From positions 620,001 to 684,000 of the forward strand of contig NZ_LT671417.1 in the NCBI RefSeq assembly GCF_900128445.1: 64,000 bases of DNA, written 5' to 3'. A program made the translations under genes and the position numbers. This stretch comes from Thermophilibacter provencensis. GTDB lineage: Bacteria; Actinomycetota; Coriobacteriia; Coriobacteriales; Atopobiaceae. Positions within the stretch are counted from its first letter, which is position 1; each line of letters begins with the position of its first letter. This document shows, piece by piece, positions 7,703-29,320 of this stretch. Under the pieces are notes generated by a model. The model had not been told where the DNA came from. It saw only the letters and a program-made list of their open reading frames with translations, and made no database searches.

Positions 7703-7729
7703 CGGCCTGAGCTCCTTCTCAACTATCTG

Positions 7730-7901: not shown

Positions 7902-7942
7902 TTGCGGGCGCACCTAGGCGCGGCGCCCCTACGCCTCCCGGT

Positions 7943-9654: not shown

Positions 9655-12234
<2,580 letters not shown>

Positions 12235-12240
12235 CGCAAA

Positions 12241-12276
12241 GAGGGGGCGGAGGGGCTGTCGCCGCTCCGCCCCCTC
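12241..12276 (+). terminator. GC-rich hairpin after clpC
   Basis: A 12-bp perfect stem (12241-12252 with 12265-12276) begins six bases after the clpC stop codon. There is no T-run, so termination efficiency is doubtful. A -10-like TATACT at 12301-12306 could start disA transcription. Confidence 0.5.
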
Positions 12277-12363
12277 TCACGACCATTGCCGCGGAGGCCG
12301 TATACTGAGGGATGAGAAGACGGGCCGGCCCGTTGGGGGCCGGCACACACGAAGGGGCCGCCC

Positions 12364-14213: not shown

Positions 14214-14253
14214 GACAAATGAGCCTGCCCCCGTTGTCTCGGGCTGGGGGTCG

Positions 14254-15480
14254 CTACTCCCGCGTGGTCTTCGGGCCTGTCTCCTCCGCCCTGAGATGTG
14301 CCATCACAAACGGCAGGTACGCGAGCGTGTCAAGGGCGATGAGCGTTGCGCTCAGGATGAGGTGACGCCAGTCCCCTCCGCTGCCTATGAGGGCAATCAG
14401 CGGTGAGGGCATTGACCAGACCACGTAGTGCGTCATGGGGGCAACGAGTCCGAGCAGCGTCGCGAAATAGGCCACGCATAGGTTCAGTGCGCCCGTGAGC
14501 ACAAACGGGACGGCAAGAATCGGGTTGAATACGCACGGCAGGCCAAAGACGATCGGTTCGTTGACGTTGAAGGCGGCGAGGGGCAGGCTTAGCGTCGCGA
14601 GTCCGCGATGGTCGCCGCGACGGGCAAGGATCAGCAGGGAGAGGACGATCCCGATCGTGCAGCCGGTCCCCCCGATCTGCGCGTAGGCGTTGTTGAAGGT
14701 CGTGTTGACAATCTGCCCCGAGTCCAGCGCGGCGAGGAAGATGGGGCCGAACACCGGGGTGATTACCGAGCCGGGGTGGATGCCGCACAGAAACAGGAGG
14801 TTCTGCAGGGCTATGGCGAAGACCGCCCCGGGGAGCGTGGCGGTCATGCCCGCGAGCGGCTCCTGGATGACGTGCAGGAGCAGGTCGTTGAGGCCATATC
14901 CCGTGAGAGAGCGAACGAGCTCCATCACGACGGCGAACAAGGTCGCCGTCAATCCCGTCGCCGCCATGATGCGGAACGAGTCCGAGATCTCGGAGGGGAC
15001 GCCGTCCCCCAGGTTGATGGCGAGCCCCCGGAGCTTCGCGAGGCGCATGAACAGCTCCGCCGAGGCTATCGACACGATGATTGCGAGCGTGATCCCCGTG
15101 GTTCCGACCAGCGAGCCCATCTCGTCGGGAGGAACGGCGACGAAGAATGACGCGACTGAGACGATGGACACGACGATGGGGCGCTCGTAGCCCATGCGGG
15201 TCGCGAGACTGTGTGGGATGAGCAGGGCAAGAAGGATCGAGATGATGCCCAGCGAGCCGTTGATCGCCCGGTCGAGCGCGGCGATGACGAAGGCGATGAC
15301 CTCGCCGGCCCCTCCGCCGACCTCCAGGCTGACCAGAGCGGACCTGAGGAACGTGGCGATGCCGTTGATCACGAAGAGGGGGATGGCCCTCATGAAGGCC
15401 GTCCTGATCGAGGCGAGGTGCCGCTCGTTGCCGAGACTCCGGGCGAGCTTCTCGAGACTGGCGAGCAGCCGGTTACTCAC
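14254..15480 (-). CDS. PTS EIIC component, lactose/cellobiose family
   Basis: A 408-residue integral membrane permease with about ten hydrophobic helices and the family hallmark NVNEPIVFGLP near residue 290. It carries a beta-glucoside-type or related sugar across the membrane while EIIB phosphorylates it. I prefer the GTG at 15480, eight bases behind GAGGAG, over an in-frame GTG at 15489; either way it overlaps the end of the EIIB gene. It is last in the minus-strand operon MFS-regulator-EIIA-EIIB-EIIC and ends convergently with ispD, 41 bases apart. No hydrolase is encoded in this arm, so the sugar cannot be named. Confidence 0.9.
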   Translation of the reverse strand: MSNRLLASLEKLARSLGNERHLASIRTAFMRAIPLFVINGIATFLRSALVSLEVGGGAGEVIAFVIAALDRAINGSLGIISILLALLIPHSLATRMGYERPIVVSIVSVASFFVAVPPDEMGSLVGTTGITLAIIVSIASAELFMRLAKLRGLAINLGDGVPSEISDSFRIMAATGLTATLFAVVMELVRSLTGYGLNDLLLHVIQEPLAGMTATLPGAVFAIALQNLLFLCGIHPGSVITPVFGPIFLAALDSGQIVNTTFNNAYAQIGGTGCTIGIVLSLLILARRGDHRGLATLSLPLAAFNVNEPIVFGLPCVFNPILAVPFVLTGALNLCVAYFATLLGLVAPMTHYVVWSMPSPLIALIGSGGDWRHLILSATLIALDTLAYLPFVMAHLRAEETGPKTTRE

Positions 15481-15793
15481 ATCCCTCACTCCTCGGGCGG
15501 TCCTCCATGAGCTCCCGCGCCTGCCTCATGACCGCCTCGCCATCCATGGTCCCGTACACCCGCATGCTGATGAGCCCGCAGCGGGCACCCGCGGCGGAGG
15601 CAAGGCGCGAGATCTCGTCGAGCTTGTGCCTGATCTGCGGCCCCACGAGAACCACGTCGAACTTCCGGATGGTATCGGCGACGTCGTCCATCCCATAGGA
15701 CTCGACGATGTCATCAGGGTCGGCGTATCTTCTCATCCGACTTACGAGCAGGCTGGTCGTGACGCCACACTCGCAGTAGAGCACCACCTTCAT
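15473..15793 (-). CDS. PTS EIIB component, lactose/cellobiose family
   Basis: 106 residues, the usual size for stand-alone cellobiose-type EIIB. The phosphorylated cysteine is expected to be Cys7 in LYCECGVTTSLLVSRM, aligning with CSAGMSTSLLVSKM of the family; Cys9 is an extra nearby cysteine. It takes phosphate from EIIA and passes it to the sugar. Its ATG overlaps the EIIA stop codon (ATGA). Confidence 0.92.
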   Translation of the reverse strand: MKVVLYCECGVTTSLLVSRMRRYADPDDIVESYGMDDVADTIRKFDVVLVGPQIRHKLDEISRLASAAGARCGLISMRVYGTMDGEAVMRQARELMEDRPRSEGCE

Positions 15794-16158
15794 GCGCTCC
15801 CCCCTTCGCGGGCGCCCACGGTCGAGAGGAGCTCATAGATGTTCACGAGCTCCTCCGCCTGCGGCTCGAGCCCCTTCGCCATCATGAGGTGGTCCTGGGC
15901 ATGGACCAGGATGAGGTCGAGATGGGCGGTCCCCCGGACGCTCGACGCGAGGATCTTGGTCTGGGCCGCCGAGGCGAGGGCGAGCTCCCCCCGACCCTCG
16001 TCCATCAGGACGTGCGCGCGGACGAAGTCCTGGTGGCGCGCCCGTTCGATCGCCCGCGAGAAGGCGGCGCGGGCGCTCCCGGCGTGGAGGATGAGCTCTA
16101 TGCATTCGGGGTGCGCGTCGTCCGCGGGCTGGGTGTCAACTTCGACGTCTGTCTTCAT
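15790..16158 (-). CDS. PTS EIIA component, lactose/cellobiose family
   Basis: 122 residues, helical. The active histidine lies in the family motif VHAQDHLM around residues 85-92. It accepts phosphate from HPr and donates it to EIIB. The ATG overlaps the stop codon of the upstream regulator (ATGA), so the whole arm is translationally coupled. Confidence 0.92.
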   Translation of the reverse strand: MKTDVEVDTQPADDAHPECIELILHAGSARAAFSRAIERARHQDFVRAHVLMDEGRGELALASAAQTKILASSVRGTAHLDLILVHAQDHLMMAKGLEPQAEELVNIYELLSTVGAREGGSA

Positions 16159-18044
16159 GAGATGTCCTCACCGATGGTCTTCATGGTCGATGCAAGCTGG
16201 GCGTAGTCGCGTCGTTTGATGAGATGGCGCACGCTCTTGGAGTCAAAGAGAAAGCGGGCGAGCATCTGGTAGAAGTAGTCGAGGCGGTGTCTGGAGCGTC
16301 TTCCCACGGAGATCAGGAAGATCACCTGCACGTCGTGGCCCGCCCCCCAGGGAATCGGTCGGTCGAGGATCCCCACGCAGCAGAGCGACTCCTCGCTCGC
16401 GATCTTGCGCGGGTGAGGGATCGCCGCCAGGTTTCCGTAGCTCGTGTTCGCGAGGGCCTCGCGTTGAAGAACGAGGTCGTAGAGGTCCCCGTCGATCTTG
16501 ACGCGACTCTCCACCCGCTCGCACATCACCCGTAGGGCCCCGGCCTTGTCCTCTGCGCGGACGTGGGGGATGAAGAGGTCCTCGCGGAAGAACCCCTCGG
16601 GGTCGGGGAGGTCGCTCGAGGCGAAGAGCTGCCTGACGCCGCTCATGTCCGCGGACTCGAGGAAGTAGCCGACCTCCACGACGGGTATGGGCATCTTCTC
16701 CCTGATCGGCGTGGTGGTGAAGATGTAGTCGTACTCGGCGATGTTGAGGCTGCGCAGACCCTGGAGGCTGGTTACGTGCAGCGTCGAGATGAGGTTGCCG
16801 AAGGCGGCGTTGAAGCGGTACTTGAGGAGCTGGGAGCTGGAGGTCCCCGTTGCGCACACGAGGATGATCGACTTCTTGCGCCGCTCGATTCGGCGCTGCT
16901 CGATGGGCATGTCGAAGATGAGCGCAACGAACCCCACCTCGTCCTCGGTGAGGCGCGCGCCAAAGTGCCGCTCGGCCACCCCACAGGCCTGTGAGGCAAC
17001 GGTCCACGCGAGCCCGAAGTTTCGCTTGATGTCGGGGAGCATGGGGTTCCCCTCCTGGATGCCCAGGGCCACGCGGTTGGCGAGAAGGGCGAGGTGGCGC
17101 GAGAGCATCATCAGGAAGTCGAGGTCGTGGGCAATGTCGAGGCCGAAGGTGGCCTCGACGCTCGCGATCATGTCCGCCGCGAGCTTGAGGATGTCGGAGG
17201 GGACGACGATGCCCTGGTCGGACGCGGTGCTCCTCTTGCTCAGGAGGATGACCTCGAGGTAGCGCTTCTCCAGGAGGGGCAGGGGCCTCCCCAGGAAGCC
17301 CTCGAGCATCGTCGCGAGGCTCGAGGCGGCGTCCCTGACGGTCTCGGAGTCCGCGGAAGGCAGGCTGTCGCCGTCGATCGGGTGGCCCTCCCCCAGGCGC
17401 TGAAGCATGGCATAGATGTAGAGGCAGATTTCGTTGAAGCTGTTGTCGGTCGTGTGGTAGCCCGTAAAGGCGACCACGGAGTGGAGGAAGCGTCTGATCT
17501 TGAGGTACGTCTCGTCGAAGCTGTCGTCGAGCAGGTGGTCCACCATCAGTGAGCGGACCGACAGCTCCGGGCCCCTCGCCCTGATTCCGTAGCCCGGGCG
17601 GCGCTCCAGGCTGAGGCGCTCGGAGACGAGGATGCGCTCGACCTCGGCGAGGTCCTGGTAGACGGTCTGCTTGGAGGCGAAGATCTGCTGGGCAACGCTG
17701 TCGGTGGAGAGGTAGGCGTCGCCCGACTCGATGAGCCGCCTCAGGATGTAGCGCACGCGGTCCTCGGAGGTCTGGGGCAGCTGGGCGCGTGGCCGGGCGT
17801 CCTCCCTTCCCACGGAGGCCACGAACCTCTCGTAGTCGTCGCGGTCCTCGACCACGAGGGTGTAGCCCGCCCCGTGCTTCGCCTCGATTCGCGCGCCATG
17901 GGCCCGGAGGGAGGAGCTGAGCTCCGCGAGTCGCGCGCGGGTCGTCTTCTCGGAGAGCCCGAGCTCACCGGCGAGCTCCCGCGCGGTGACGTACTCCCCC
18001 TCGCGGATGCGCCGCATGAGCAGGCGGGTTTGCTCTTGTCTCAT
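16155..18044 (-). CDS. LicR/MtlR-type PTS-controlled transcription activator
   Basis: 629 residues with the full multi-domain layout: two N-terminal helix-turn-helix domains (about 1-60 and 85-150), two PTS regulation domains (about 170-400, with a conserved His in LSRHLALLANR), an EIIB-like domain (ILVCATGTSSSQLLKYRF, near 410-430) and a C-terminal EIIA domain of the fructose/mannitol type (His in AAIPHP). Such proteins bind DNA when phosphorylated appropriately by HPr and the cognate EIIB, so they sense sugar flux. The ATG at 18044 overlaps the MFS stop codon (ATGA). It is the natural candidate to bind the CTACC-type inverted repeats at 19372 and 20213, which is inference. Confidence 0.9.
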   Translation of the reverse strand: MRQEQTRLLMRRIREGEYVTARELAGELGLSEKTTRARLAELSSSLRAHGARIEAKHGAGYTLVVEDRDDYERFVASVGREDARPRAQLPQTSEDRVRYILRRLIESGDAYLSTDSVAQQIFASKQTVYQDLAEVERILVSERLSLERRPGYGIRARGPELSVRSLMVDHLLDDSFDETYLKIRRFLHSVVAFTGYHTTDNSFNEICLYIYAMLQRLGEGHPIDGDSLPSADSETVRDAASSLATMLEGFLGRPLPLLEKRYLEVILLSKRSTASDQGIVVPSDILKLAADMIASVEATFGLDIAHDLDFLMMLSRHLALLANRVALGIQEGNPMLPDIKRNFGLAWTVASQACGVAERHFGARLTEDEVGFVALIFDMPIEQRRIERRKKSIILVCATGTSSSQLLKYRFNAAFGNLISTLHVTSLQGLRSLNIAEYDYIFTTTPIREKMPIPVVEVGYFLESADMSGVRQLFASSDLPDPEGFFREDLFIPHVRAEDKAGALRVMCERVESRVKIDGDLYDLVLQREALANTSYGNLAAIPHPRKIASEESLCCVGILDRPIPWGAGHDVQVIFLISVGRRSRHRLDYFYQMLARFLFDSKSVRHLIKRRDYAQLASTMKTIGEDIS

Positions 18045-19297
18045 GGGATGTCGCCCCCTTCCGCGCTCCCGAGCCGCCGCCCCGTCGGGCGGCGAGAGCC
18101 CCCCGGCGTCGGACAAGCCAACCATATCAGCCCGAGAAGGGCGAGGTCGACCAGATGGACGCCCAGCGCCGCAAAAAGGGCGGTGAGGTAGGTGCCCGTG
18201 AAGTCATAGAGGTAGCCCACGACCGACAGCGAGAGGGCGGACCCGAGGACGCACGCCGCGGACACCACGGGGAACCACCTCTCGTAGTCGCCTCGGCTCA
18301 GCAGCCGCTGGGAGAGCGTCGAGAGGCAGACGCCCGTGACCGAGTAGACCGACCCAAAGAGCGCGGCGCTCGCGATGAGGGCGACGGGCCCCCTGAGGGT
18401 CATCAGCATGCCAATCGACGCGGCGTTGACGAGGATCAGCGCGACGATGGTGGCCCAGGGCCCCACACGGTCGCTGATCGAGCCGGCCGAGAGCTTGAAG
18501 GCGATGTCAGAGAGAAGGGCGGCCGACACCATGAGCGAGCCCGTGGTCGCCCCCAGCCGCAGGGTCTCCGCGTATCCGATGAAGTGCTGGGGAATGCCGG
18601 TGAGGCAGGAGTGCAGCAGGCTGATGGCGGTGAGGGTCGCGACGACGGCGGGAACGCGCGACCGGGGAAGGGAGCCTCCCTGGCCCGTCGCGGCGCGTGC
18701 GGTTCCGTAGGGGGCGCGGCCCACCGTGCCGGGCTCGATCTCGATGCGGCAGATCAGCGCGGGAAGGTTGAGCACGAGCATGAGGCACCCCATGAGCGCC
18801 GTCGTGGGACGCCATCCCAGGGCCGCGATGAGGGCGGAGAGAAGGGGCGAGAAGAGCGCGCCCGCGGTGCCGCCCACCCCGAAGACAAGGCCCGTGACCG
18901 TCCCTTGCCGCTCGTTGAACCAGTTGTTCACCATGACGGTGATGACGACCATCCCAAAGAGCCCGGTGCCCACGCCGCGAATCGCTCCGAGGGCATACAG
19001 CTCGGCGACCGACCCCGCGCCCGCCATGGCCACCGTGGGCGCGACCGCGAGTGCCGTCGCGCAGGCGAGGGTCCTCCTGAAGCCCAGGCGACGGTGAACC
19101 CTGACGGCGAAGAGGGAGACGAGAGCCGACACGGCGTTCGAGATGGTCGTGTGGAGGGCGACGTCCCCTCGCAGCGCCTGAAGCCCCTCGGCCATCGGGG
19201 TGTAGAAGGCGCCGACGGAGTTGATGCAGAGACCGACCGCGGAGGCGAACATCCCGCAGAGCGCGACGACGAGGAGCACGTGGGACTTTCCGGGCAC
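18041..19297 (-). CDS. MFS transporter, OxlT/monocarboxylate-like
   Basis: A 418-residue membrane protein with about twelve hydrophobic helices. It resembles the oxalate/formate and monocarboxylate group of the major facilitator superfamily (GFRRTL loop, GVGTGLFGMVVITVM helix, GSVYSVTGVCLSTLSQ). A plausible job is export of a fermentation acid or uptake of an organic acid, but the substrate is not readable. I chose GTG at 19297 because GAGGAGGT lies directly upstream; a TTG at 19330 is possible. It is the first gene of the minus-strand PTS operon. Confidence 0.8.
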   Translation of the reverse strand: MPGKSHVLLVVALCGMFASAVGLCINSVGAFYTPMAEGLQALRGDVALHTTISNAVSALVSLFAVRVHRRLGFRRTLACATALAVAPTVAMAGAGSVAELYALGAIRGVGTGLFGMVVITVMVNNWFNERQGTVTGLVFGVGGTAGALFSPLLSALIAALGWRPTTALMGCLMLVLNLPALICRIEIEPGTVGRAPYGTARAATGQGGSLPRSRVPAVVATLTAISLLHSCLTGIPQHFIGYAETLRLGATTGSLMVSAALLSDIAFKLSAGSISDRVGPWATIVALILVNAASIGMLMTLRGPVALIASAALFGSVYSVTGVCLSTLSQRLLSRGDYERWFPVVSAACVLGSALSLSVVGYLYDFTGTYLTALFAALGVHLVDLALLGLIWLACPTPGGSRRPTGRRLGSAEGGDIP

Positions 19298-19391: not shown

Positions 19392-19463
19392 AGCATTGAA
19401 TTGTGCGGAGCCGCGCGCCTCGGAGAATGGCCCTGTGGAACCGACGAGGCCAAGGGAGGGGCA

Positions 19464-20198
19464 ATGAGAGGCATCAGGGCGCGGGTGCTGAGAATCTGCG
19501 ACATGACCGTTGACACGGATGCGCTGGTGAGGCCGGACGGCCCGGGGAGCGGGGGAGCAAAGACGGTCATCCCCTGCTGGGCGATGCTCATCGAGCATCC
19601 CGAGGGACTGGTCCTCTTCGACACGGGAGAGCGGACCTGCGAGGACGGGTCGTCGGGTCGGGAGCGGCTCGTCGAGCAGCTCGCGCTGTGCGGGGTCAGT
19701 CCCGAGCACGTGCGGCTCGTCATTCTCTCGCACCTGCACCACGACCACGCGGGCAACCTGGACCTGTTTCCTGACGCCGACGTCGTCGTCCAGCGCCGCG
19801 AGCTGGAGGTCGCCCAGGCCGAGGTGGCGGCGGGGACACCGGGCTCGATCTATCGGAGGGAGGAGATCTCGGGAGCCGTCCGCTGGCGCGTGATCGACGG
19901 GGAGCGCGAGATCCTGCCCGGCATCAGGCTCATCCCGGCCCCGGGTCACACCGAGGGGCTGCAGGCGATGCTCCTCGACCTCGAGCGTCCGATGCTGGTG
20001 ACCTCGGACGCCTGCTACACGGCACGCAACTTCGGGCCGCCCGCACGTCTTCCGGGGCTCTACCGGGACGCGTCCGAGACCCTGCGCTCGGTCGAGCGCC
20101 TACGCGGCATCGCCGGGCGGAGCGGCGCCTTCGTGATGTTCGGTCACGATTCCGAGCAGTTCTCACGGATGCGCCTCGCGCCGGTGCCCTACGAGTAG
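19464..20198 (+). CDS. metallo-beta-lactamase-fold hydrolase, lactonase-like
   Basis: 244 residues of the MBL superfamily, closest by pattern to N-acyl-homoserine lactonase/AttM-like enzymes. The zinc motif HxHxDH is clear in SHLHHDHAG (near residue 93). Further metal ligands are a His in APGHTEG and an Asp in TSDACY, and a C-terminal His lies in GHDSEQ. It probably opens a lactone or hydrolyses an ester or phosphodiester in the cytoplasm. In this setting a sugar lactone is attractive but unproven. The start has GGGAGGGG. It is the first plus-strand gene of the island. Confidence 0.8.
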   Translation: MRGIRARVLRICDMTVDTDALVRPDGPGSGGAKTVIPCWAMLIEHPEGLVLFDTGERTCEDGSSGRERLVEQLALCGVSPEHVRLVILSHLHHDHAGNLDLFPDADVVVQRRELEVAQAEVAAGTPGSIYRREEISGAVRWRVIDGEREILPGIRLIPAPGHTEGLQAMLLDLERPMLVTSDACYTARNFGPPARLPGLYRDASETLRSVERLRGIAGRSGAFVMFGHDSEQFSRMRLAPVPYE

Positions 20199-20343: not shown

Positions 20344-21732
20344 ATGACCAACCAAGAGCTGGCAGGAAGGCTCGTCGAACTATTCGGTGGGAAGGAGAAC
20401 ATCAAGGAGCTGATGCACTGTCAGACCCGCGTCCGTTTCCGCGTCTTCGACGAGTCGAAGATCGACCAGGACGCCATCAAGGCTCTCCCGGGCGTCTTCG
20501 GCATCGTGATCAAGGGAGGCCAGTACCAGGTGGTCGTGGGAGGTGAGGCGACCAACGTCTACAACGAGGTGGCGCTCATCACGGGCATCGGCGAGGATGC
20601 CAAGGTCGACGACCCCGACGCGGCGGCGCAGGATGCCGGCCTCGGCGAGAAGAAGGAGAGCGTCTTCGGTCGAGTCATCGACTTCATCTCCAACTGCTTC
20701 ATCCCGATGATTCCGGCCCTCGTGGCAGCGGGCATGCTCAAGGTCGTCTACTCAATCGCGACGATCGCGGGGGTGCCCGCCGAGCTCGGGACCATGCAGA
20801 TCCTGAACTTCGTCGCCGACTCGGGCTTCTACTTCATCCCCATCATCCTGGCAAACTCGGTGGCCAAGCAGCTGGGATGCAACCAGGCGGTCGCCATGGT
20901 GCTCGCGGGCGTCCTGTTGCATAACAACTGGCGCCTCATTGTCGCCGCTGGCGAGCCCATCGACTTCTTCGGTCTCGACGTCCCCCTCCTCAACTACAAC
21001 CAGACGGTCGTGCCCATCTTCCTGACGATCTTCTTCCAGAAGTACGTGGAGAAGCTCATCAACAAGATTACCCCATCCGTGCTGAAGTCCGTCTTCGTCC
21101 CCTTCCTCACGGTTCTTGTCATCGCTCCCTTTGAGCTGCTCGTCTTTGGCCCGATTGGCGAGTACGTGAGCTCCGTGCTCTCCTACGCCGTCAACGCCAT
21201 CTACGCCGTTGCCCCGTGGCTGCTCCCGATGATCGCGGGCGGGCTGACGCCCATCCTCGTCATGACGGGCACCCACCACGCGATGACGCCGATCATCTAC
21301 ACCAACTTCGCCGCGTTCGGGTACGACGCGACCATCTATCCGGGCATGTTCCTCTCCAACATCGCCCAGGGCGGGGCGACGCTCGGCGTCGCGGTGAGGA
21401 CCGCCAACAAGAACACGCGATCCATCGCTGCCTCCACGGGCCTCTCCTGCATCCTGGGCATCACCGAGCCCGCCCTCTACGGCACCGAGCTTCGTCTCAA
21501 GCGCCCGCTCTACGCGGCGCTCATCGGAGGTGCGGTCGGCGGCCTGTACGTGGGCCTCATGAACGTCCGCTGCATGGTCCTCGGCAACCTCGGCATCTTC
21601 GGAATCGTCCAGTACATCACGAGCGACTACCCGATGAACATCGTCCACATCTGCATCGCGGTGCTCATCACCCTCGTGGTCTCGTTCGTGGTCTCGTTCC
21701 TCCTCGGCGCCTCCGACAAGTACGCAGAGTAG
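20344..21732 (+). CDS. PTS EIIBC component, glucose/beta-glucoside family
   Basis: 462 residues. The N-terminal EIIB domain (1-85) has the phosphocysteine Cys26 in MHCQTRVRFRV. A linker at 85-105 leads to a membrane EIIC domain (about 110-450) with ITEPALYGTELR, the family's sugar-site motif. It has no fused EIIA; the matching Crr-like EIIA is the last gene of the same operon (28793-29320). It imports and 6-phosphorylates a sugar that feeds the following enzymes. Related proteins act on sucrose, trehalose, beta-glucosides or N-acetylmuramate. ATG at 20344 follows GAAAGGA. Confidence 0.9.
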   Translation: MTNQELAGRLVELFGGKENIKELMHCQTRVRFRVFDESKIDQDAIKALPGVFGIVIKGGQYQVVVGGEATNVYNEVALITGIGEDAKVDDPDAAAQDAGLGEKKESVFGRVIDFISNCFIPMIPALVAAGMLKVVYSIATIAGVPAELGTMQILNFVADSGFYFIPIILANSVAKQLGCNQAVAMVLAGVLLHNNWRLIVAAGEPIDFFGLDVPLLNYNQTVVPIFLTIFFQKYVEKLINKITPSVLKSVFVPFLTVLVIAPFELLVFGPIGEYVSSVLSYAVNAIYAVAPWLLPMIAGGLTPILVMTGTHHAMTPIIYTNFAAFGYDATIYPGMFLSNIAQGGATLGVAVRTANKNTRSIAASTGLSCILGITEPALYGTELRLKRPLYAALIGGAVGGLYVGLMNVRCMVLGNLGIFGIVQYITSDYPMNIVHICIAVLITLVVSFVVSFLLGASDKYAE

Positions 21733-21814
21733 CGCACCGGGCTCCGTCGCGCGCCCCCTCGTGGCGGAGCCCACCCTCACGACGCGACAGGCACCAGACC
21801 TTGAAAGGGAAGAG

Positions 21815-24607
21815 ATGGACAGAGAATTCGGCTCCGGGTCGTTTGGCACGTGGTTCAGCGACGAGGCGGGCCTCCCGGCGTATCGCTATACCTGTGACCA
21901 GTACCAGCTCCCCGAGGAGCTGCCGCTCGTCAACAAGGACTCCGTGTGGGGCGACTATCGGAACCACTGGAGCCAGATTGGAAACGACCGCATCATAGGG
22001 CTCACCTACAACTTCGGGTACGTGAAGATTCGCCAGGACGAGGGCGGCCCCAAGTTCGTCAACGACTGGGACCCCGAGCGCCGCCAGTATGCGGGAGGGT
22101 TCGGCTACTTCAGGGACGACGAGAGCTGCCTCTCGACGTTCTATCAGGAGCAGGAGGACTTCGAGCGCATCTTCGGGTGCGGCTACTTCACCAAGCGGGT
22201 CTCCGACGGGCGCCTCGGGGTCGAGCAGACCGTTTTCGCGCCCTATGGCGACGACCCCGCGCTCGTCTCGAGGGTCCGCGTGACCAACAACACCGACCAC
22301 GTCGTGCGAGGGCGCTGGTTCGAGTACTGGGGCACCGAGCAGTACCAGATGAGCTACCGCCCCCTCAAGTACACCTACTACACGTCCGCGCGGCCCGACT
22401 ACCACTACTACTTCCGCCGCGAGTTCGGGCGGAACTTCTCGCGGCACTTCCGGGGGCGAGAGGACGGGGCGAGGCTCGACCTGCGCTTCGACGGGTATCG
22501 CTACCCCGAGAGGGACGAGGAGCACGGCATTGCCTCGATTGACGAGGTGAACGGGCTCATCTGCCCGCGGGTGGGCGACCGCAACAACTTCGAGGACCTG
22601 ACCCCTCCCTCCCTGTTCCTCGTGAAGCTCGACGGGGACTCCTCCCTCTCGATGCGTCATGCCTCGGCCTCCTTCTTCGCCAACAGGGACCTGCTGCGTC
22701 CGACGGGCGTCGACTCGGACGTCGATGAGGGCGACCCCGACTCCCTCATCGCCGTCAGCGAGCTCGAGATTGCCCCCGGGCAGACGGCTGAGATCAGCTT
22801 TCTCGTGGGGTACCTGCCCGAGAACGTGGACCTGGATGCCCTGGTGGCCAAGTACCGTGGCCACGTCGACGAGACATTCGCGCGCACGCTCGACCTCTGG
22901 TCGAAGGGGCAGACCACGATCGAGCTCCCGGAGGGCGACGAGGACGGCTGGCTCACGCGCGAGCTCGCCTGGCACAACTACTTCCTCCGCTCGTGCGTCA
23001 CCTATGATCGTGCCCTTGGCGGCCACATCCTCAACCAGGGGTGCAACTACCAGTACATAGTCGGAAACCAGGTGTTCGTGCGCGACGTGGCGCAGCACCT
23101 CATGCCGCTCATCTACAGCGACCCGGGGCTTGCGAGAGAGCTCATCGACTACGAGTTGCGTATGGTCGACAGCACGGGCATGATCTTCGGCGGGATAACG
23201 GGCGACGGTGTCCTCGTCGATGATCCCCGCAACACCGACGGCCTCCCGCCGCACTACGTCATGTCCAACGCGGCCGGCGCCTCGGTGGGGGAGCCCCGTG
23301 AGGACGGTCGGCCGCCCATGGAGCAGCGCTACGACGACCAGGAGCTGTGGCCTCTGTGGGTCGTGTCCGAGTACGTGCTCGCGACCAAGGACCTCGGGTA
23401 CCTCGACGAGGTCAAGACGGGGTACTTCTCGCTCAACAACGAGCCCAGGAAGGTGCTCGACATCCTGAAGCTCCTGTTCCGCTACACCCGCGACGAGGTG
23501 GGCGTGGGCAGGCACGGTCTCGTGCGCACCCTCTGGAACGACTGGTCGCGCGCGCTCCACCACAAGAAGGGCCGTCCCGTCCCGCCCGAGGACGCCCGGG
23601 ACGCCTCGCGCATCGGCGAGAGCCTCTTCACCTCGTCGCTGGGAGCCTATTGCACGGAGGTGTTCGCCGACCTGCTCCATGAGATCGGTGACCCGATGGA
23701 AAACGAGGTCCGCTCGTATAGCGACGGCCTCAAGAAGGCCATAAACAGCGTCTGGAACGGCCGATGGGTGCAGCGCATCTGGGTGAGCGAGAACTACGGC
23801 TTCGTGGGTGACAGGGACGAGTTCTTCATGGAGGGCCAGCCCTGGACGCTCGTGTCGCGCACCCTGCCCGACGACCGGGCGCACACGCTCATCGACAACA
23901 TGCGCGAGCTGGTCATGGACCCCTCGCCCATCGGCGCTGCAAAGCAGCGCGTCGCCCCCGACTTCGACGAGCCCGTCAACGACGGTTGGGTCTGGTGGTC
24001 GCTCAACGGACCCCTCATCTGGGGAATGGTTCCCTACGACCGAGACCTCGCTTATAAGGAGTACAAGAAGAACAGCCTGGCCAACCATGCCGACAAGTAT
24101 CCTGACATCTGGTTCGGCATCTGGAGCGCGGACGACAACTACACCTCGTTCCTGGGGGAGTTCCCCGGGTACACGCGCTTCCGCGACGGCGTTCTCGAGA
24201 ACAAGCGCGCCTATCTCGAGGGCCATCCCGAGCCCTTCGACCGGCCCGATGCCATCAACTTCCCCGTGGGGTGCGTCCACCCGCACGCCTGGCCCCTCTA
24301 TGACGCCATCAGATTCCTGCGGCCCGCCTTCACGGCAGAGGGCGTCAGGATCTCCCCGGCGCTTCCCAAGGAGCGGTATCGGATCTGGTCGAACCTCATC
24401 GGCTACGAGCAGGACGAGGAGGGGATCGGGGGGCACTACCGGCCGGTCTGTTCCGGCGAGTACCGGGTCACGGTCGACGTCTCCGGCATGGGGAGGAGCT
24501 TCGAGCGGCTCGTGGTCAACGGCGAGGAGCGTCCCGTGAGGGTCGAGGGGGGCGAGGTGTCCTTCGTCGGCACGGCTGATGACGACCTCGTCTGGAGGCT
24601 CAGCTGA
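21815..24607 (+). CDS. GH94-like glycoside phosphorylase
   Basis: 930 residues, cytosolic (no signal peptide). The fold order fits GH94/GT36 phosphorylases: an N-terminal beta-sandwich (to about 280), a helical linker, an (alpha/alpha)6 barrel with FVRDVAQHLMP, and a C-terminal cap. Asp576 in LWNDW aligns with the general acid of the DWND motif in cellobiose phosphorylases, although surrounding residues differ (WNDWSRAL instead of DWNDxL). GH94 enzymes split beta-glucosides with phosphate to give a sugar 1-phosphate, saving ATP. Placed after a PTS permease, it may cleave an already phosphorylated disaccharide. It could instead belong to a neighbouring unclassified phosphorylase or hydrolase family. 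Start chosen behind GAAAGGGA. Confidence 0.7.
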   Translation: MDREFGSGSFGTWFSDEAGLPAYRYTCDQYQLPEELPLVNKDSVWGDYRNHWSQIGNDRIIGLTYNFGYVKIRQDEGGPKFVNDWDPERRQYAGGFGYFRDDESCLSTFYQEQEDFERIFGCGYFTKRVSDGRLGVEQTVFAPYGDDPALVSRVRVTNNTDHVVRGRWFEYWGTEQYQMSYRPLKYTYYTSARPDYHYYFRREFGRNFSRHFRGREDGARLDLRFDGYRYPERDEEHGIASIDEVNGLICPRVGDRNNFEDLTPPSLFLVKLDGDSSLSMRHASASFFANRDLLRPTGVDSDVDEGDPDSLIAVSELEIAPGQTAEISFLVGYLPENVDLDALVAKYRGHVDETFARTLDLWSKGQTTIELPEGDEDGWLTRELAWHNYFLRSCVTYDRALGGHILNQGCNYQYIVGNQVFVRDVAQHLMPLIYSDPGLARELIDYELRMVDSTGMIFGGITGDGVLVDDPRNTDGLPPHYVMSNAAGASVGEPREDGRPPMEQRYDDQELWPLWVVSEYVLATKDLGYLDEVKTGYFSLNNEPRKVLDILKLLFRYTRDEVGVGRHGLVRTLWNDWSRALHHKKGRPVPPEDARDASRIGESLFTSSLGAYCTEVFADLLHEIGDPMENEVRSYSDGLKKAINSVWNGRWVQRIWVSENYGFVGDRDEFFMEGQPWTLVSRTLPDDRAHTLIDNMRELVMDPSPIGAAKQRVAPDFDEPVNDGWVWWSLNGPLIWGMVPYDRDLAYKEYKKNSLANHADKYPDIWFGIWSADDNYTSFLGEFPGYTRFRDGVLENKRAYLEGHPEPFDRPDAINFPVGCVHPHAWPLYDAIRFLRPAFTAEGVRISPALPKERYRIWSNLIGYEQDEEGIGGHYRPVCSGEYRVTVDVSGMGRSFERLVVNGEERPVRVEGGEVSFVGTADDDLVWRLS

Positions 24608-24674
24608 CGGCTGCCGGAGCAAGGGGCTTCCCCGGAGTTGGGCGCCCACAACGAAGCAACGAGAGGAGTCGCAT

Positions 24675-25436
24675 ATGAGAAACGTCAGCAAGAGGGCGGC
24701 AGAGCTCATTGAGCCCATGAAGGGAGGCCTTATCGTCAGCTGCCAGACGCAGCCCGATGAGCCCATCTACACGCCTGGGATGTCCACCAAGTTCGCGGAG
24801 TGCGCGGAGTGGGCGGGCGCCGTGGGCATCAGGGCCAACTCCCCCGACCAGATTCGCGACATTAAGAAGCACGTCAAGCTCCCGGTCATCGGCCTCTGGA
24901 AGATCTGGCACGACGACACCGACGTCTTTATCACGCCTACCATGCGCGAGGTCGACGCCCTGGTCGAGGCCGGCGCGGACATCATCGCCCTGGACTGCAC
25001 GGCGCAGAGGACCCATGAGGGAACCGTCGCCTGGGACCTCCTGCCCAAGGCCAAGGAGAAGTACCCCGACATGATTACCTTCGCCGACGTGTCCAACGTC
25101 GAGGAGGCTCGGCGTGCCGTCGCGAACGGGGCCGACATCGTCGCGCCCACGCTCTATGGCTACACGGCGGCTACCAGCAACATCGAGGGCGCCGACTATC
25201 GCATGTTCGCCCAGTTCTGCAGGGAGCTCGGGGATGACGCCTACGTCATGATGGAGGGGCACATCTACACTCCCGACGACGCGATGCGATGCGTCTTCCT
25301 CGGTGCCCACGCGGTCGTGGTGGGTTCGGCGATCACGCGGCCGCACTACACGGCGAAGCGCTTCGTTGACCTCCTCAGCGGATACCAGCACAACTGGCGC
25401 GACGTCGAGAAGGCAAAGCACGAGCAGCACGCCTAG
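24675..25436 (+). CDS. NanE-like sugar-6-phosphate 2-epimerase, divergent
   Basis: 253 residues with the TIM-barrel pattern of N-acetylmannosamine-6-phosphate 2-epimerase (NanE). Shared features are GLIVSCQ at 18-24, VGIRAN at 50-55, the catalytic Lys76 in PVIGLWK, Glu194 in MMEG, and the phosphate-site segment VVVGSAITRP near the C terminus. Differences stand out: the usual EGR is EGH (His196), the loop after Lys76 is altered, and no nanA, nanK or nagA lies nearby. It may therefore epimerise carbon 2 of another hexose or hexosamine 6-phosphate made by the PTS. It is preceded by GAGAGGAG and spaced like an operon gene. Confidence 0.75.
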   Translation: MRNVSKRAAELIEPMKGGLIVSCQTQPDEPIYTPGMSTKFAECAEWAGAVGIRANSPDQIRDIKKHVKLPVIGLWKIWHDDTDVFITPTMREVDALVEAGADIIALDCTAQRTHEGTVAWDLLPKAKEKYPDMITFADVSNVEEARRAVANGADIVAPTLYGYTAATSNIEGADYRMFAQFCRELGDDAYVMMEGHIYTPDDAMRCVFLGAHAVVVGSAITRPHYTAKRFVDLLSGYQHNWRDVEKAKHEQHA

Positions 25437-25510
25437 CGGGCGGACGGGCGGCGCGCCGGTCCGCGGAGCGTCACCCACGAGGCGCGTCGTCTTGAAAGGG
25501 GAACACAGAC

Positions 25511-27805
25511 ATGGCGCACATCAACATCGATGGCGTTCAGAACGTCCAGGTATCAAAGCCAATTCCGTCGGAGAAGACGCCGCTGCAGCAGCTCGAGATC
25601 ATGGAGCGCTACACCGAGACGTACCAGCGCTTCTCTGGGCTGGGCAAGGCCCGTCGCGAGGTCGAGTGCCTCAAGGTGATCTTCCCGACCATGTTCCGGC
25701 GCATCGAGGACGCCGACCTCATAGCCGGCCGTCTCGACTTTCTCCCCATCGGCTTCGGTTCGGTGACCTCCGTCGGTGGGGTGGGGCACTACTGCGTCTT
25801 CCACAAGCTCCGCGCGTTCAGGGAGCAGCTTGACACCGAGGAGCAGAGGGCGCGCGTTGACAGGCTCTACGACTTCTGGCAGGAGCACGATCTCAAGACG
25901 CTATACTGCCAGGACATTCTCGGTGACGCGACAACGGGCTTCTTCATGCAGTACGAGCCGCCCTACATGGCGACGGCGCGCCTCTCGGGCATGATGCTCG
26001 ACTACAACAAGCTCGTACGCCTTGGCGTCGGGGGGATCGTCTCGCAGATCGACGACCGGCTGGACGGCTCCAGTGACGACGAGCGGGACTTCCTCGCCGC
26101 GTGCCGCGACGCGATGCTGCTCTTCCAGGACGTCATCGATCGCGAGGTGGAGCTCTGCGAGGAGGCCATGGAGGGGGCGAGCCCCGCTCGGAGGAGGGAG
26201 CTCGCGCTCATGCGCGACGACCTCGAAGCCGTGCGCACGAGGCCTCCCGAGACCTTCCACCAGGCGCTCCAGCTCTTCTGGCTCTATGCGCTGTGCGCCG
26301 GGTGCATAAACTACGGGCGACTCGACATCGTCCTCGGCCCCTTCCTCAAGCGCGACCTCGACTCCGGCGTCATCACGGACGACGACGCCTACCGCTACGT
26401 CAAGAGCCTGTGGACCATGATCGAGAACCGTCGCACCACGGTGAACGGGCGCGTCATCGTTGGGGGGAAGGGCCGTCCCGACGTTGAGGCGGCCGACCTG
26501 TTCGCGCGGGTCTGCCTGCGCGTCTGCAAGGATTGCCGCTACGTGGAGCCCCAGTTCACGCTGCGGTTCGACAGCGACACCCCGCAGGACATCATGGACA
26601 TGGCCTATGACGCCATCGGTGCGGGGGCCACCTACCCGACCCTTTACAACGACGACGTCGAGGTACCGGCGGTCGAGTATGGCATGCGGGTCCCTCGTGA
26701 GGTCGCCGAGCAGTACGTCCCGTTCGGGTGCACCGAGTTCGTTATCCAGGGGAAGAGCGTTGGGACGCCCAACACCCTGCTCAACCTACTCAAGATTCTC
26801 CAAATCAGTCTCAACGGGGGGCATGACCCCTACGACGGGGTCGACAAGAGCGCTGGCGCGCAGGTCAGGCCCCTGGAGGAGCTCGACAGCTTCGAGAAGG
26901 TCTACGACAACTACTGCAGGGTCCTTGACCGGTACATGGACAAGTCTGTCGAGGACCAGTACCACTCCTATGAGGTCATGAACAGGGAGGTGAGCTTCCT
27001 GTTCACCTCCATCCTGATGGACGACTGCATCGAGCGTGGCCGCGCGCTTCTCGACGGTGGCGTGGAGATCCTCGGGGGGACCAACGAGACGTATGGCAAC
27101 ATCAACACCTCCGACTCCCTCTTCGCGATAAAGCGCCTTGTGTTCGACGAGGGGCGCTATACGCTCAAGCAGGTGGTCGACGCCTGCAATGACGACTTCC
27201 AGGGGCCGGGAGAGGAGCGGCTGCGCCTCGATCTGTGGCACTGCGACAAGTACGGAAACGACCTCGACGAGGTCGACGAAATGGCGAACAGGTGCTACGA
27301 GTACGTGGCCAAGGGCATCCGGGACCGGGGTATCGCCAAGGGGATGGGCTACTACCTCATCGTCATCTCAAACAACCAGACGAACACGGACTGGGGCCAC
27401 ATGACCGCCGCGAGCCCGGACGGGCGTCGCGCGGGGGTGTATCTCAACCCTGCGAACAACCCCCAGGGGGGCGCGGCGACAGGCGGACCCACCGCCATGC
27501 TCAACTCCCTCGCCAAGTTTGACGCGCGCTACCACGCCGGGAGCGTCCAGAACATCAAGTTCACCCCGCGCATGTTCAACCATGACCGGAAGAAGGTGAA
27601 GATGCTGTTTGACACCTACTTCAGGCGTGGCGGGTGCCATCTGATGGTGACGGTGTGCGACAAGGGCGAGCTCGAGGACGCCCAGATGCATCCCGAGAAG
27701 TACCCGGACCTCATCGTCCGCGTCGCCGGCTACAGCGCGGTCTTCGTCGACCTGCCGAAGGACGTGCAGGACGAGGTCATCTCCCGTACCCTCTGGGACT
27801 CCTAG
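25511..27805 (+). CDS. glycyl radical enzyme, dehydratase/C-O lyase type, unassigned
   Basis: 764 residues, full length. The glycyl radical loop RVAGYSAVF places the radical on Gly740. The active-site loop is VPFGCTEF: thiyl Cys407 followed by Glu409, a GCxE signature shared with diol dehydratases, CutC, and the YbiW/PflD group. It lacks the adjacent Cys-Cys of pyruvate formate-lyase, so formate production is unlikely. The residues after the active site (FVIQGKSVGTPN) differ from the GCVEP of glycerol dehydratase and CutC. With a PTS permease and a sugar-phosphate epimerase in the operon, a phosphorylated sugar or anhydro-sugar is the likeliest substrate. That is inference. Its activase lies 11 bases downstream. 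Confidence 0.9.
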   Translation: MAHINIDGVQNVQVSKPIPSEKTPLQQLEIMERYTETYQRFSGLGKARREVECLKVIFPTMFRRIEDADLIAGRLDFLPIGFGSVTSVGGVGHYCVFHKLRAFREQLDTEEQRARVDRLYDFWQEHDLKTLYCQDILGDATTGFFMQYEPPYMATARLSGMMLDYNKLVRLGVGGIVSQIDDRLDGSSDDERDFLAACRDAMLLFQDVIDREVELCEEAMEGASPARRRELALMRDDLEAVRTRPPETFHQALQLFWLYALCAGCINYGRLDIVLGPFLKRDLDSGVITDDDAYRYVKSLWTMIENRRTTVNGRVIVGGKGRPDVEAADLFARVCLRVCKDCRYVEPQFTLRFDSDTPQDIMDMAYDAIGAGATYPTLYNDDVEVPAVEYGMRVPREVAEQYVPFGCTEFVIQGKSVGTPNTLLNLLKILQISLNGGHDPYDGVDKSAGAQVRPLEELDSFEKVYDNYCRVLDRYMDKSVEDQYHSYEVMNREVSFLFTSILMDDCIERGRALLDGGVEILGGTNETYGNINTSDSLFAIKRLVFDEGRYTLKQVVDACNDDFQGPGEERLRLDLWHCDKYGNDLDEVDEMANRCYEYVAKGIRDRGIAKGMGYYLIVISNNQTNTDWGHMTAASPDGRRAGVYLNPANNPQGGAATGGPTAMLNSLAKFDARYHAGSVQNIKFTPRMFNHDRKKVKMLFDTYFRRGGCHLMVTVCDKGELEDAQMHPEKYPDLIVRVAGYSAVFVDLPKDVQDEVISRTLWDS

Positions 27806-27816
27806 GGGGCCGCGCG

Positions 27817-28743
27817 ATGGGAGACGCCGACAAGACGATCACGGTCATGAACCTCGAGCGCTTTGCCACGCATGACGGGCCGGGCATACGTACCGCGGTC
27901 TTCGTCAAGGGGTGTCCTCTCCACTGTCCCTGGTGCGCGAACCCCGAGACCCAGTCGCTCGGTCCCGTCCACTTCGTTGATGGCGAGCGGTGCGTGGGCT
28001 GCGGGGAGTGCGCTCGCAGCTGCCCGAACGGCGCGATCTCCCTCGTGACGGAGGGCGGTCGCCGCCGCCCGCGGGTCGATCCCGCGCGTTGTTCCGGCTG
28101 TCGCGCGTGCGAGCGAGCTTGCCTGCGCGAGGCGATAGTGCTCCAGGGTCACGTGATGAGCGTCGGGGAGGTGCTCTCCGTCGCTGAGCGCGACCGCGAC
28201 TACTATGAGGCGTCGGGTGGGGGCGTCACGCTCAGCGGCGGGGAGCCGCTCATGTTTGCCGACACGGCCCTCGCGTTTCTCCGCGAGGCGCGTGTCCGCG
28301 GCCTTGACACGGCGGTTGAGACCACCGGGAATGTCGCGTTCGAGACGCTGAGAGCCGTCGAGCCCTATGTCGACCACTTTCTCTATGACGTGAAGTCCCT
28401 CGACGAGAGTTCACTCAGGAATGTGGTCGGGGGGAGCGTGAAGCTGAACCAGGAGGGGCTCCGCTGGCTCGCCGCGCGCTGTCCTGACAAGATCAACGCT
28501 CGCGTGGCCGTCATTCCCGGGTTCAACTTCGATGACGAGGAGCTGAAGGGGATCATCGACTGGCTGTGGGAGATTGGGGTGCGTCGCGTCAACCTGCTGC
28601 CCTATCACACCCTCGGTCTGGGGAAGTACGCGAAGCTGGGAAGGGACTACGCATGCTCGAGGAGCTCGCTCAGAGACGAGGACCTCGAGGAGCTGCACGA
28701 GTATGCCCTCTCGCGGGGAATGGAATCGAAGGTCGGGGCGTAG
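27817..28743 (+). CDS. glycyl radical enzyme activase (radical SAM)
   Basis: 308 residues. The radical-SAM cluster is CX3CX2C (Cys33, 37, 40 in KGCPLHCPWC). It is followed by two ferredoxin-type [4Fe-4S] motifs (CVGCGECARSCP and CSGCRACERACL) inserted at residues 55-105, as in activases of dehydratase-type glycyl radical enzymes; the PFL activase lacks that insert. SAM-binding GGEP (SGGEPL) is also present. It abstracts the hydrogen from Gly740 of the upstream enzyme under anoxic conditions. The ATG at 27817 has only a weak GGGGGC ribosome site and probably relies on coupling. Confidence 0.93.
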   Translation: MGDADKTITVMNLERFATHDGPGIRTAVFVKGCPLHCPWCANPETQSLGPVHFVDGERCVGCGECARSCPNGAISLVTEGGRRRPRVDPARCSGCRACERACLREAIVLQGHVMSVGEVLSVAERDRDYYEASGGGVTLSGGEPLMFADTALAFLREARVRGLDTAVETTGNVAFETLRAVEPYVDHFLYDVKSLDESSLRNVVGGSVKLNQEGLRWLAARCPDKINARVAVIPGFNFDDEELKGIIDWLWEIGVRRVNLLPYHTLGLGKYAKLGRDYACSRSSLRDEDLEELHEYALSRGMESKVGA

Positions 28744-28792
28744 CCTGCGAGCCGACCGCAGGAATCACGAGCTGAGACAAGGGGAGGAAGAA

Positions 28793-29320
28793 ATGGGCCT
28801 GTTCGACAGAGTGAGGCAGCGACTCCGTCCCACCGAGGGGAGCGTTGCTGTGGTGACGTCCAAGACCCCGGGCACGGTCTTCTCGCCGACTCCGGGCACG
28901 ATCGTGCCCCTGTGCCAGACGCCTGACCCGGCGTTCAGCGAGGGGATGCTGGGCCAGGGGTGCGGCATCCGACCGGATGCGGGCGTGGTGTACGCTCCGG
29001 TCGACGGGGTGGTCGCGTTCACCACGGAGACCAACCACGCCATCGGCTTTACCTCGGATGATGGGATAGAGGTGCTGATTCACATCGGAATCGACACCGT
29101 CAAGATGAAGGGGCGCGGGTTTGCCCGTCGCGTCGAGGCAAACGAGCGCGTGCGCTCGGGCGCTCCCGTCATGACCTTCTCACGCGAGGCGATTGCCACG
29201 GCGGGCTATGACGATATGGTGTTCTGCGTGGTCGCCAACACGGACGCCTTTCGTGAGGTTACCCTAGAGGCCGATGGGCATGCCGATGCGGGCTCTGACC
29301 TCCTACGGGTGAGCCGGTAG
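28793..29320 (+). CDS. PTS EIIA component, glucose (Crr) family
   Basis: 175 residues. The two facing histidines of EIIA-Glc are His82 (TNHAIGF) and His97 (VLIHIGID), 15 apart as in E. coli Crr; the second is the phospho-acceptor. It relays phosphate from HPr to the EIIB domain of the EIIBC at 20344-21732, which lacks an EIIA. The ATG at 28793 follows GGGGAGGAAG. It closes the glycyl radical operon; ispF begins 36 bases later. Confidence 0.92.
   Translation: MGLFDRVRQRLRPTEGSVAVVTSKTPGTVFSPTPGTIVPLCQTPDPAFSEGMLGQGCGIRPDAGVVYAPVDGVVAFTTETNHAIGFTSDDGIEVLIHIGIDTVKMKGRGFARRVEANERVRSGAPVMTFSREAIATAGYDDMVFCVVANTDAFREVTLEADGHADAGSDLLRVSR

Follow-up and report, generated by a model that had tools for sequence, protein, structure and literature searches.

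Which reaction is catalysed by the glycyl radical enzyme (GRE) that Thermophilibacter provencensis encodes among the components of a sugar phosphotransferase system (PTS), and on which kind of sugar, is the question raised by this locus. The initial annotation of the window (the whole stretch of 64,000 nucleotides that was analysed) had described six genes on one strand as a single operon and had proposed a different radical route for an imported, phosphorylated sugar or disaccharide. The six genes are all real and lie on the + strand with intergenic gaps of 11-82 bases (82, 67, 74, 11 and 49 bases from EIIBC to EIIA) and, as a correction to that description, three further genes sit just upstream of the operon:

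16155..18125, - strand: PRD-type regulator with HTH, PRD and EIIA-2 domains (HTH_11, Mga, PRD, PTS_EIIA_2), kept in L025
18041..19330, - strand: MFS transporter, divergent (MFS_1 93 bits), kept in L025
19401..20198, + strand: MBL-fold lactonase-like protein (Lactamase_B 54 bits; AiiA-like 126 bits, below the cut-off of 375), kept in L025
20344..21732, + strand: PTS EIIBC of the Glc superfamily, nearest to the beta-glucoside model (PTS_EIIC and PTS_EIIB over cut-off; TIGR01995 462 bits)
21815..24607, + strand: GH94-fold protein (Glyco_hydro_94 49 bits, cut-off 27)
24675..25436, + strand: predicted NanE-like sugar-phosphate 2-epimerase, divergent paralogue (NanE 169 bits; PRK01130 241 bits, cut-off 189)
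25511..27805, + strand: GRE of a separate clade (PFL-like 380 bits; Gly_radical 96 bits)
27817..28743, + strand: radical SAM GRE activase (TIGR02494 288 bits, cut-off 174)
28793..29320, + strand: PTS EIIA of the Glc superfamily (PTS_EIIA_1 150 bits)

The EIIB, EIIC and EIIA domains of a Glc-superfamily PTS enzyme II all scored over cut-off, and the best model for EIIBC plus EIIA is the beta-glucoside PTS, under whose full-length cut-off they score because they are separate chains. An aldolase, GldA, a shell protein and an aldehyde dehydrogenase are all missing from the six genes, as had been claimed. The PRD-type regulator is a candidate regulator of the PTS operon, and the gene of the MBL-fold lactonase-like protein, which does not belong to the wider conserved core, is possibly part of the operon unit; promoter- and terminator-like sites occurred in numbers near the shuffled expectation. 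Besides the window genome, G015 alone was found to have the full six-gene set, and absence of the set from all related genomes, which the initial annotation had named as decisive against its reading, is thus not the case. In a second species of the genus all nine genes (the three upstream genes and the six) are syntenic, with identities of 77-95%, and, because the pair of NanE-like and GRE genes also recurs in four phyla, the grouping is more than chance.

The GRE carries Cys407, Glu409 and Gly740 at the positions initially annotated. Gly740 aligns with a Gly in every full-length row, and the Cys-x-Glu motif reads GCTE in 51 of 84 rows and GCGE in 32, one row having no match in the searched stretch. 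With its radical Gly, Cys-x-Glu motif and cognate activase the protein is, by sequence criteria, a GRE of the CxE eliminase class. It shows 22-26% identity to YbiW, PflD, a HypD, a CutC and PflB (25.5% to YbiW and 25.9% to PflD). YbiW and PflD are GREs acting on 1,5-anhydroglucitol-6-phosphate and 1,5-anhydromannitol-6-phosphate, according to PMC12441222 and the PDB titles 8id7 and 8id0. A phylogenetic tree (20 clade rows from the 82 described below; A3, 25 rows) placed the GRE outside the characterised clades compared, and separate YbiW and PflD orthologues carried by the same genome grouped with those of E. coli (support 1.0). The GRE clade alone received a weak support of 0.44, the clade plus its sister branch 0.97. 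Clustering with a clade of known substrate, the other outcome named beforehand as contrary to a different radical route, was looked for and not found.

The residues around the active site also set the clade apart: it lacks the GxH motif seen in YbiW and PflD and has shortened loops, at least 97% of 82 rows retain Arg157 (L027 and L078 left out; L026 and L051, L028 and L149, and L107 and L147 are duplicate records), and one segment pattern is matched by 73 of the 82 rows, 70 of which have no His in the segment. What we claim for the His region is confined to the absent GxH motif, Arg157 and the segment pattern, because alignments disagree on the column opposite the His. A structure model of the GRE compares with the eliminase fold at Z 28-31 and rmsd 3.1-4.2 (over 650 residues aligned), and it gives no hint as to the substrate, because its eliminase matches among the first 27 rows differ by no more than about 1 Z unit.

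A scan for relatives, of which the best 80 of 162 were kept, recovered Bacillota, Bacteroidota, Spirochaetota and Actinomycetota, the carriers being anaerobic bacteria of these four phyla. Judged by their record titles, many carriers are gut or rumen isolates or MAGs. The recurring core comprises the NanE-like epimerase, the oxygen-sensitive GRE and the activase. A NanE-like gene is present on 66 of the 83 stretches and, for 7 of the remaining 17, elsewhere in the genome; at 10 of the 83 loci no clade-type NanE was found in the searched genome, and the NanE-like protein is therefore not indispensable. An activase-family gene occurs on 79 of the 83. In all seven family genomes with a GRE at least 64% identical, the NanE-like gene lies directly upstream of the GRE gene, and gene orders differ across the four phyla. 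The phosphorylating device varies as well (three PTS types, a ROK kinase, or none adjacent): a mannose- or fructose-type PTS replaces the window-type PTS at some other loci, and a ROK kinase, nearest to glucokinases with the human ManNAc kinase third, is found on 34 of 83 stretches. Such swapping of the PTS for a ROK kinase or for other PTS types fits a phosphorylated sugar. No gene of the TAL/FSA family was detected on any of the 89 GRE stretches (E. coli fsaA and window-genome probes, E 1e-6); such genes are present elsewhere in the window genome, one of them about 0.5 kb from the YbiW orthologue.

The recurrent partner of the GRE belongs to a NanE-like subfamily separate from the canonical NanE of the window genome, which adjoins a ROK kinase. 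The six catalytic residues of NanE (Gln, Arg, Lys, Asp, Glu, Arg) and the acetamide-contact residue Tyr165 are kept in 66 of 66 NanE-like rows. All 66 rows also have Phe87; in canonical NanE this position is Tyr in 8 of 9 rows, but the NanE of S. aureus has Phe too. We regard the protein as a divergent NanE paralogue, a predicted sugar-phosphate 2-epimerase.

The GH94-like protein does not share this distribution, being found on only 12 of 83 stretches. In the structural comparison of its model (low confidence, mean pLDDT 57) Foldseek ranks 1-23 were GH94 entries. An alternative GTG start is possible at 21761; numbered from there, Arg597 occupies the position of the GH94 catalytic Asp in the window protein and in L025, and the 12 other aligned rows have Asp. 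We take the catalytic Asp of cellobiose phosphorylase to be the second Asp of D-W-N-D. Since the gene is infrequent and the window copy lacks this residue, a disaccharide phosphorylase is no defining step of the route and was rejected as its core. Thus, of the initial interpretation, the disaccharide-phosphorylase part is weak, whereas the different radical route is supported by the position of the GRE outside the YbiW and PflD clades, by the separate presence of those two enzymes in the genome, by the stretches free of TAL/FSA genes and by the NanE-like epimerase as recurring partner. A pathway based on DeoC is at most a possibility, as no redox-consistent route could be written for it. Of the 9 among 83 stretches that carry DeoC, four have it on the other strand, either about 1 kb or at least 7 kb away, and in one, L078, the GRE itself falls outside the clade.

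We propose, with a confidence that stays somewhat short of even, that the epimerase brings the C2 epimers of a hexose 6-phosphate into equilibrium and that the GRE expels a neighbouring oxygen substituent. EIIBC and EIIA would import a sugar and phosphorylate it, presumably at C6, and it would then feed the module of NanE-like 2-epimerase, GRE and activase. The epimerase may equilibrate the gluco and manno C2 epimers, and the GRE would take one of them, more likely the manno form. The thiyl radical of Cys407 would abstract a hydrogen from a carbinol at C2 or beside it, Glu409 would deprotonate the hydroxyl of that carbinol, and a neighbouring oxygen substituent would be expelled to yield a deoxy-carbonyl sugar phosphate. 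The proposal is based on the retained NanE catalytic set, with which NanE inverts C2 of an open-chain aldose 6-phosphate, on the radical Gly, the Cys and the CxE Glu kept by the GRE, and on the joint occurrence of the two proteins across phyla. An aldehyde at C1 offers a possible rationale, as one GRE plus an epimerase would do where E. coli has two GREs for gluco and manno anhydrohexitols. ManA (7 of 83 stretches) and GH38 (3 of 83), which recur as partners delivering or handling mannose 6-phosphate, were counted in its favour, as were the mannosylglycerate-type locus of L089 and the rarity of amino-sugar genes (both given below); against it, ManA, GH38 and ROK links are minority contexts, 10 of 83 loci have no clade-type NanE in the searched genome, nagA and agaS lie near the pair in G123, and the acetamide-contact Tyr as well as Phe87, the S. 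aureus residue, are compatible with an N-acetyl sugar. Some operons, moreover, show no enzyme beyond phosphorylation, GRE and NanE-like protein that would account for the fate of the product. That the pair constitutes a radical branch point, at which one GRE, supplied by a 2-epimerase, removes water or an alkoxy group from an aldohexose 6-phosphate at C2 or an adjoining position, is possible but doubtful, and this judgement covers jointly the candidate products, e.g., a 2-deoxy-lactone, a 3-deoxy-2-ulose or 1,5-anhydrofructose 6-phosphate. If true, a GRE would here act on a reducing sugar phosphate, and its active site would have been remodelled in comparison with those of the eliminases considered.

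The same residues of the epimerase could serve an amino-sugar route, in which the NanE-like protein converts ManNAc-6P and GlcNAc-6P into each other (or acts on another N-acyl form) and the GRE has one of two roles, forming a ManNAc-type phosphate out of an unusual amino sugar or eliminating the C2 nitrogen group of the manno epimer. We consider this unlikely, yet worth retaining: the catalytic set and the acetamide-contact Tyr are invariant, the mannose-family PTS components of L046 resemble GalNAc systems among others, and nagA and agaS lie about 5 kb from the NanE-GRE pair in G123, but the genome already has its canonical NanE beside a ROK kinase, the ROK kinases of the stretches are nearest to glucokinases, and among 89 stretches nagA was found on only 2, nagB on 1 and agaS on 1. 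These counts are lower bounds because E. coli probes are insensitive (E. coli nanE recovered 38 of 89 stretches and the window NanE 70; E. coli manA none of 89 and a ManA from the loci 7). A sialic-acid or amino-sugar cluster as such is unsupported by the neighbouring genes, as seen with these insensitive probes. The order of the two enzymes might also be reversed, the GRE acting first on an imported 6-phosphorylated glycoside or derivative and releasing a manno-type hexose 6-phosphate that the NanE-like protein (or ManA) passes to glycolysis. The operons with only phosphorylation, GRE and NanE-like protein speak for this order, since their last product should be a common metabolite, as does L089, where a mannosylglycerate-type locus (a mannosylglycerate-hydrolase-like GH38 and MngA-like PTS subunits) adjoins the GRE in a genome without a NanE-like gene; however, the product of the hydrolase-like GH38 gene might by itself set the sugar free, and we know of no radical glycoside cleavage of this kind, so that we give the reversed order a rather low probability.

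Anhydrohexitols have no carbonyl and hence allow no NanE-type epimerisation. The window operon is probably not an anhydrohexitol route, because the genome encodes orthologues of YbiW and PflD separately, that of YbiW next to a gene of the aldolase family; together with the separate GRE clade and the missing TAL/FSA genes nearby, this led us to reject that route as the main reading. A variant of it that uses a different aldolase elsewhere in the genome is improbable for the same reasons, in spite of the PTS-linked GRE, the identical CxE motif and the FrwC-like fructose-type EIIBC (FrwC belongs to the PflD locus) on the distant sister branch. Least probable of all is that the NanE-like protein and the GRE are neighbours through shared ancestry or chance and have no common pathway: distance correlation and within-family synteny partly reflect common descent, but the pair recurs in four phyla with differing gene orders, and the partner is always the divergent NanE subfamily, never the canonical NanE that several of the same genomes also carry.

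Judged from genes and their arrangement, the NanE-GRE pair has the appearance of a new radical sugar route, and among the publications listed by searches of the open-access literature none on this gene set was recognised. The pair points to a subfamily of GREs that is repeatedly accompanied by the same kind of gene across four phyla, and in which a single assay could assign a reaction to more than 100 genes. If the proposed C2 equilibration and elimination is right, radical sugar chemistry would extend beyond anhydrohexitols, and the epimerase would restrict the candidate substrates to sugar phosphates that bear a carbonyl at C1, which is directly testable.

Compared with YbiW and PflD, the window system has in common a CxE GRE, an activase, a PTS link and an expected phosphorylated sugar-type substrate, and differs by its epimerase partner and by having no TAL/FSA gene nearby. 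With other GRE eliminases (glycerol and propanediol dehydratases, CutC, HypD, IslA) its GRE shares the fold, Cys, Glu and Gly but forms a separate clade with different active-site segments. The GH94 phosphorylases (cellobiose, chitobiose) belong to the same fold family as the window protein, which, like that of L025, has Arg for the catalytic Asp. The epimerase resembles NanE (PMC8482478) in its TIM-barrel family and six catalytic residues, and matches solved NanE chains with up to about 160 bits. The signature given there, x-Pro-x-Ile-Gly-Ile-x-Lys-basic, is replaced by Ile-Gly-Leu-Trp-Lys-Ile in the window, the Leu being fixed in 66 of 66 rows, i.e., IGL-x-K-hydrophobic in the paralogue versus canonical IGI-x-K-basic. 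The divergent paralogue is further marked by Gln113, Pro160 and Tyr163 and by a C-terminal extension carrying Trp243, Arg244, Glu247 and His251, and it is linked to a GRE, not to NanA.

Judged from its sequence, the glycyl radical enzyme (GRE) of the window belongs to a subfamily with an altered active site and a recurring NanE-like epimerase partner; among the matches listed, no description of a NanE-linked GRE was recognised in the open-access literature. Gene coordinates bear out the run of six genes on one strand proposed in the initial annotation (intergenic gaps, in order, of 82, 67, 74, 11 and 49 bases), and its positions for Cys407, the CxE Glu409 and the radical Gly740 of the GRE also held.

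19401-20198, +, lactonase-like MBL gene, immediately before the operon
20344-21732, +, EIIBC
21815-24607, +, GH94-fold protein
24675-25436, +, NanE-like epimerase
25511-27805, +, GRE
27817-28743, +, radical SAM activase of the GRE
28793-29320, +, EIIA

An MFS gene and a PRD-type regulator lie upstream of the operon on the - strand, and the nine genes (these two, the six and the MBL gene) are conserved at 77-95% identity in a second species of the genus (G015, locus L025). The MBL gene would suit a lactone product, yet it is outside the wider core of NanE-like gene, GRE and activase.

In a tree including 20 clade rows, the clade of the window GRE and its relatives joins a distant sister branch (G026, G154, G183) with a support of 0.97; taken without that branch, the clade has 0.44. 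Against YbiW, PflD, a HypD, a CutC and PflB, the window GRE shows identities of 25.5%, 25.9%, 25.3%, 23.5% and 21.9%, respectively. Of the four PFL-family places in the window genome, one falls with E. coli YbiW (51.7% identity, support 1.0), another with E. coli PflD (54.2%, support 1.0; G000:C3:713735-715642, L003), and a third is PflB-like. The genome therefore has YbiW/PflD-type genes at other sites, and the system in the window is distinct from them. The YbiW orthologue, outside the window (G000:C3:2613671-2616735; L002, L123), has a gene of the fructose-6-phosphate aldolase (TAL/FSA) family about 0.5 kb away, 42% identical to E. coli FsaA, and this is likely an anhydroglucitol-6-phosphate locus.

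Scanning one genome per species turned up 162 relatives, the best 80 of which (58-77% identity) come, by record title, from Bacillota, Bacteroidota, Spirochaetota and Actinomycetota; with L025-L027 these make 83 loci (L026 and L051 being one record). Within the host family, a GRE was found at E 1e-150 or better in 10 of 140 genomes and a NanE-like match at E 1e-80 or better in 8 of 140, and the NanE-like gene stands directly upstream of the GRE in all seven genomes whose GRE is at least 64% identical. G131 has the NanE-like gene alone, without the GRE, and the three sister-branch genomes have a GRE at 48-50% without it, together with activase, GntR and fructose-type EIIBC. Because no homologues of the window EIIBC, EIIA and GH94-like proteins were found on the 19.5-kb stretches of four genomes (G123-G126), the PTS and GH94-like genes look like local additions to the core; in G124, an EIIC of cellobiose type lies some 7 kb away from the GRE.

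Across the 83 stretches, activase-family genes (79) and NanE-like genes (66) were the commonest, then DeoR (38), ROK (34), Gfo/Idh/MocA and AraC (28 each), GH94-like (12), GntR (11), DeoC, 3-keto-disaccharide hydrolase and xylose-isomerase-like TIM (9 each), mannose-type EIIC (8), ManA (7), fructose-type EIIBC (6), and GldA, GH38 and GH1 (3 each). In nine loci (L058, L061, L065, L071, L077, L085, L097, L100, L105) a gene of the 3-keto-disaccharide hydrolase family is close to the GRE, mostly together with Gfo/Idh/MocA genes, like the 3-keto glycoside route. In L080 (13196-13816), L083 and L098 the activase is succeeded by a phosphatase-like gene of the HAD family, which in L080 and L098 stands between it and the GH94-like gene. 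In L146, nagA (over cut-off) and a gene of the AgaS family (15846-18195) lie about 5 kb from the NanE-GRE pair, and another GRE, different from the first, is located between them (13357-15792). In 89 stretches, E. coli probes, which miss distant relatives (nanE 38/89, manA 0/89), matched fsaA and kbaY in none, nagA in two, and nagB, agaS and nanA in one each; TAL/FSA probes from the window genome matched none at E 1e-6, locus-derived ManA, DeoC and GldA probes matched 7, 9 and 3, and the window NanE 70.

NanE inverts C2 of an aldose 6-phosphate that it binds in the open-chain form, using six active-site residues (as described in PMC8482478), and these are kept in all 66 NanE-like rows (65 loci and the window). 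Nine canonical NanE proteins were compared, one from the window genome, where it is separate and adjoins a ROK kinase, and eight from genomes also carrying this GRE clade or the sister branch. The rows linked to a GRE fall together in a weakly supported group (0.55) and differ from canonical NanE in fixed Phe87 for Tyr, Gln113 for Arg, Pro160 for Thr, and Tyr163, and in a C-terminal extension with Trp243, Arg244, Glu247 and His251 (counted from base 24669, two codons ahead of the ATG). The protein thus appears to be a specialised paralogue whose substrate would still be a six-carbon sugar 6-phosphate carrying a carbonyl at C1. Over 63 loci, distances between GREs are correlated with those between NanE-like proteins (r=0.72, against at most 0.11 in 1000 permutations), and common descent contributes to this.

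Alignment places Arg597 of the window and L025 GH94-like proteins at the catalytic Asp of cellobiose phosphorylase, the second Asp of D-W-N-D; all 12 remaining rows of the alignment retain Asp, including that of L041, an opposite-strand gene outside the cluster. The structure model is poor (mean pLDDT 57) and its top matches are GH94 entries, first 8bou, an N,N'-diacetylchitobiose phosphorylase; canonical phosphorolysis by the window protein is doubtful.

The PTS, NanE-type and CxE-GRE features and their genetic linkage are evident at the sequence level. From these we infer that the imported sugar would be 6-phosphorylated, that the epimerase would equilibrate its C2, and that the GRE would take one epimer and expel an oxygen substituent. 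We favour the manno epimer because partners delivering or handling mannose 6-phosphate recur, namely ManA (7/83) and L089 of Candidatus Epulonipiscium viviparus, where an MngA-like PTS, a mannosylglycerate-hydrolase-like GH38, GRE and activase lie in a row (5281-13169) in a genome that has no NanE-like gene. The PTS subunits match MngA among other fructose-type models, and the GH38 is nearest to mannosylglycerate hydrolase (596 bits; cut-off of 1138 not reached).

Against this reading, ManA and GH38 are minority contexts, and a clade-type NanE is missing from 10 of the 83 loci. When whole genomes were searched for the 17 stretches without it, the gene was found elsewhere for seven (L031, L037, L047, L048, L057, L070, L074) and not for ten (L027, L029, L043, L062, L069, L078, L089, L090, L095, L106), among which the L078 GRE is outside the clade, L027 is of the sister branch, and the contigs of L095 and L106 begin close to the GRE. 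Some operons have no further enzyme gene, which leaves two options: general metabolism takes up the product, or the epimerase works after the GRE. An N-acetyl sugar is a possible substrate, as the acetamide-contact Tyr is retained in the NanE-like protein, and nagA and agaS lie near the NanE-GRE pair of G123.

The predicted GRE fold (mean pLDDT 80) is ordinary and points to no substrate, since its eliminase matches are about equal (first 27 rows: Z 31.2 to 30.1, rmsd 3.1-4.1, 688-713 residues). HypD is reported to require Cys, Glu, one His and two Asp (PMC7077986); Cys and Glu are retained in the clade, and the residue facing the His is alignment-dependent. Where YbiW has G-D-A-H and PflD G-Q-G-H, the clade has T-A-R-L-S-G-M-M-L-D/N-Y (73/82 rows), with E-P-Q in place of Q-P-N, M-V-T in place of Q-F/Y-N in the Gly domain, and two shortened stretches around window residues 264 and 305-316. 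The substrates of YbiW and PflD are 1,5-anhydroglucitol- and 1,5-anhydromannitol-6-phosphate (PMC12441222), as the titles of PDB entries 8id7 and 8id0 likewise give. For a sugar not open to epimerisation, E. coli has one GRE for the gluco form and another for the manno form; here, given the epimerase, one GRE could be enough.
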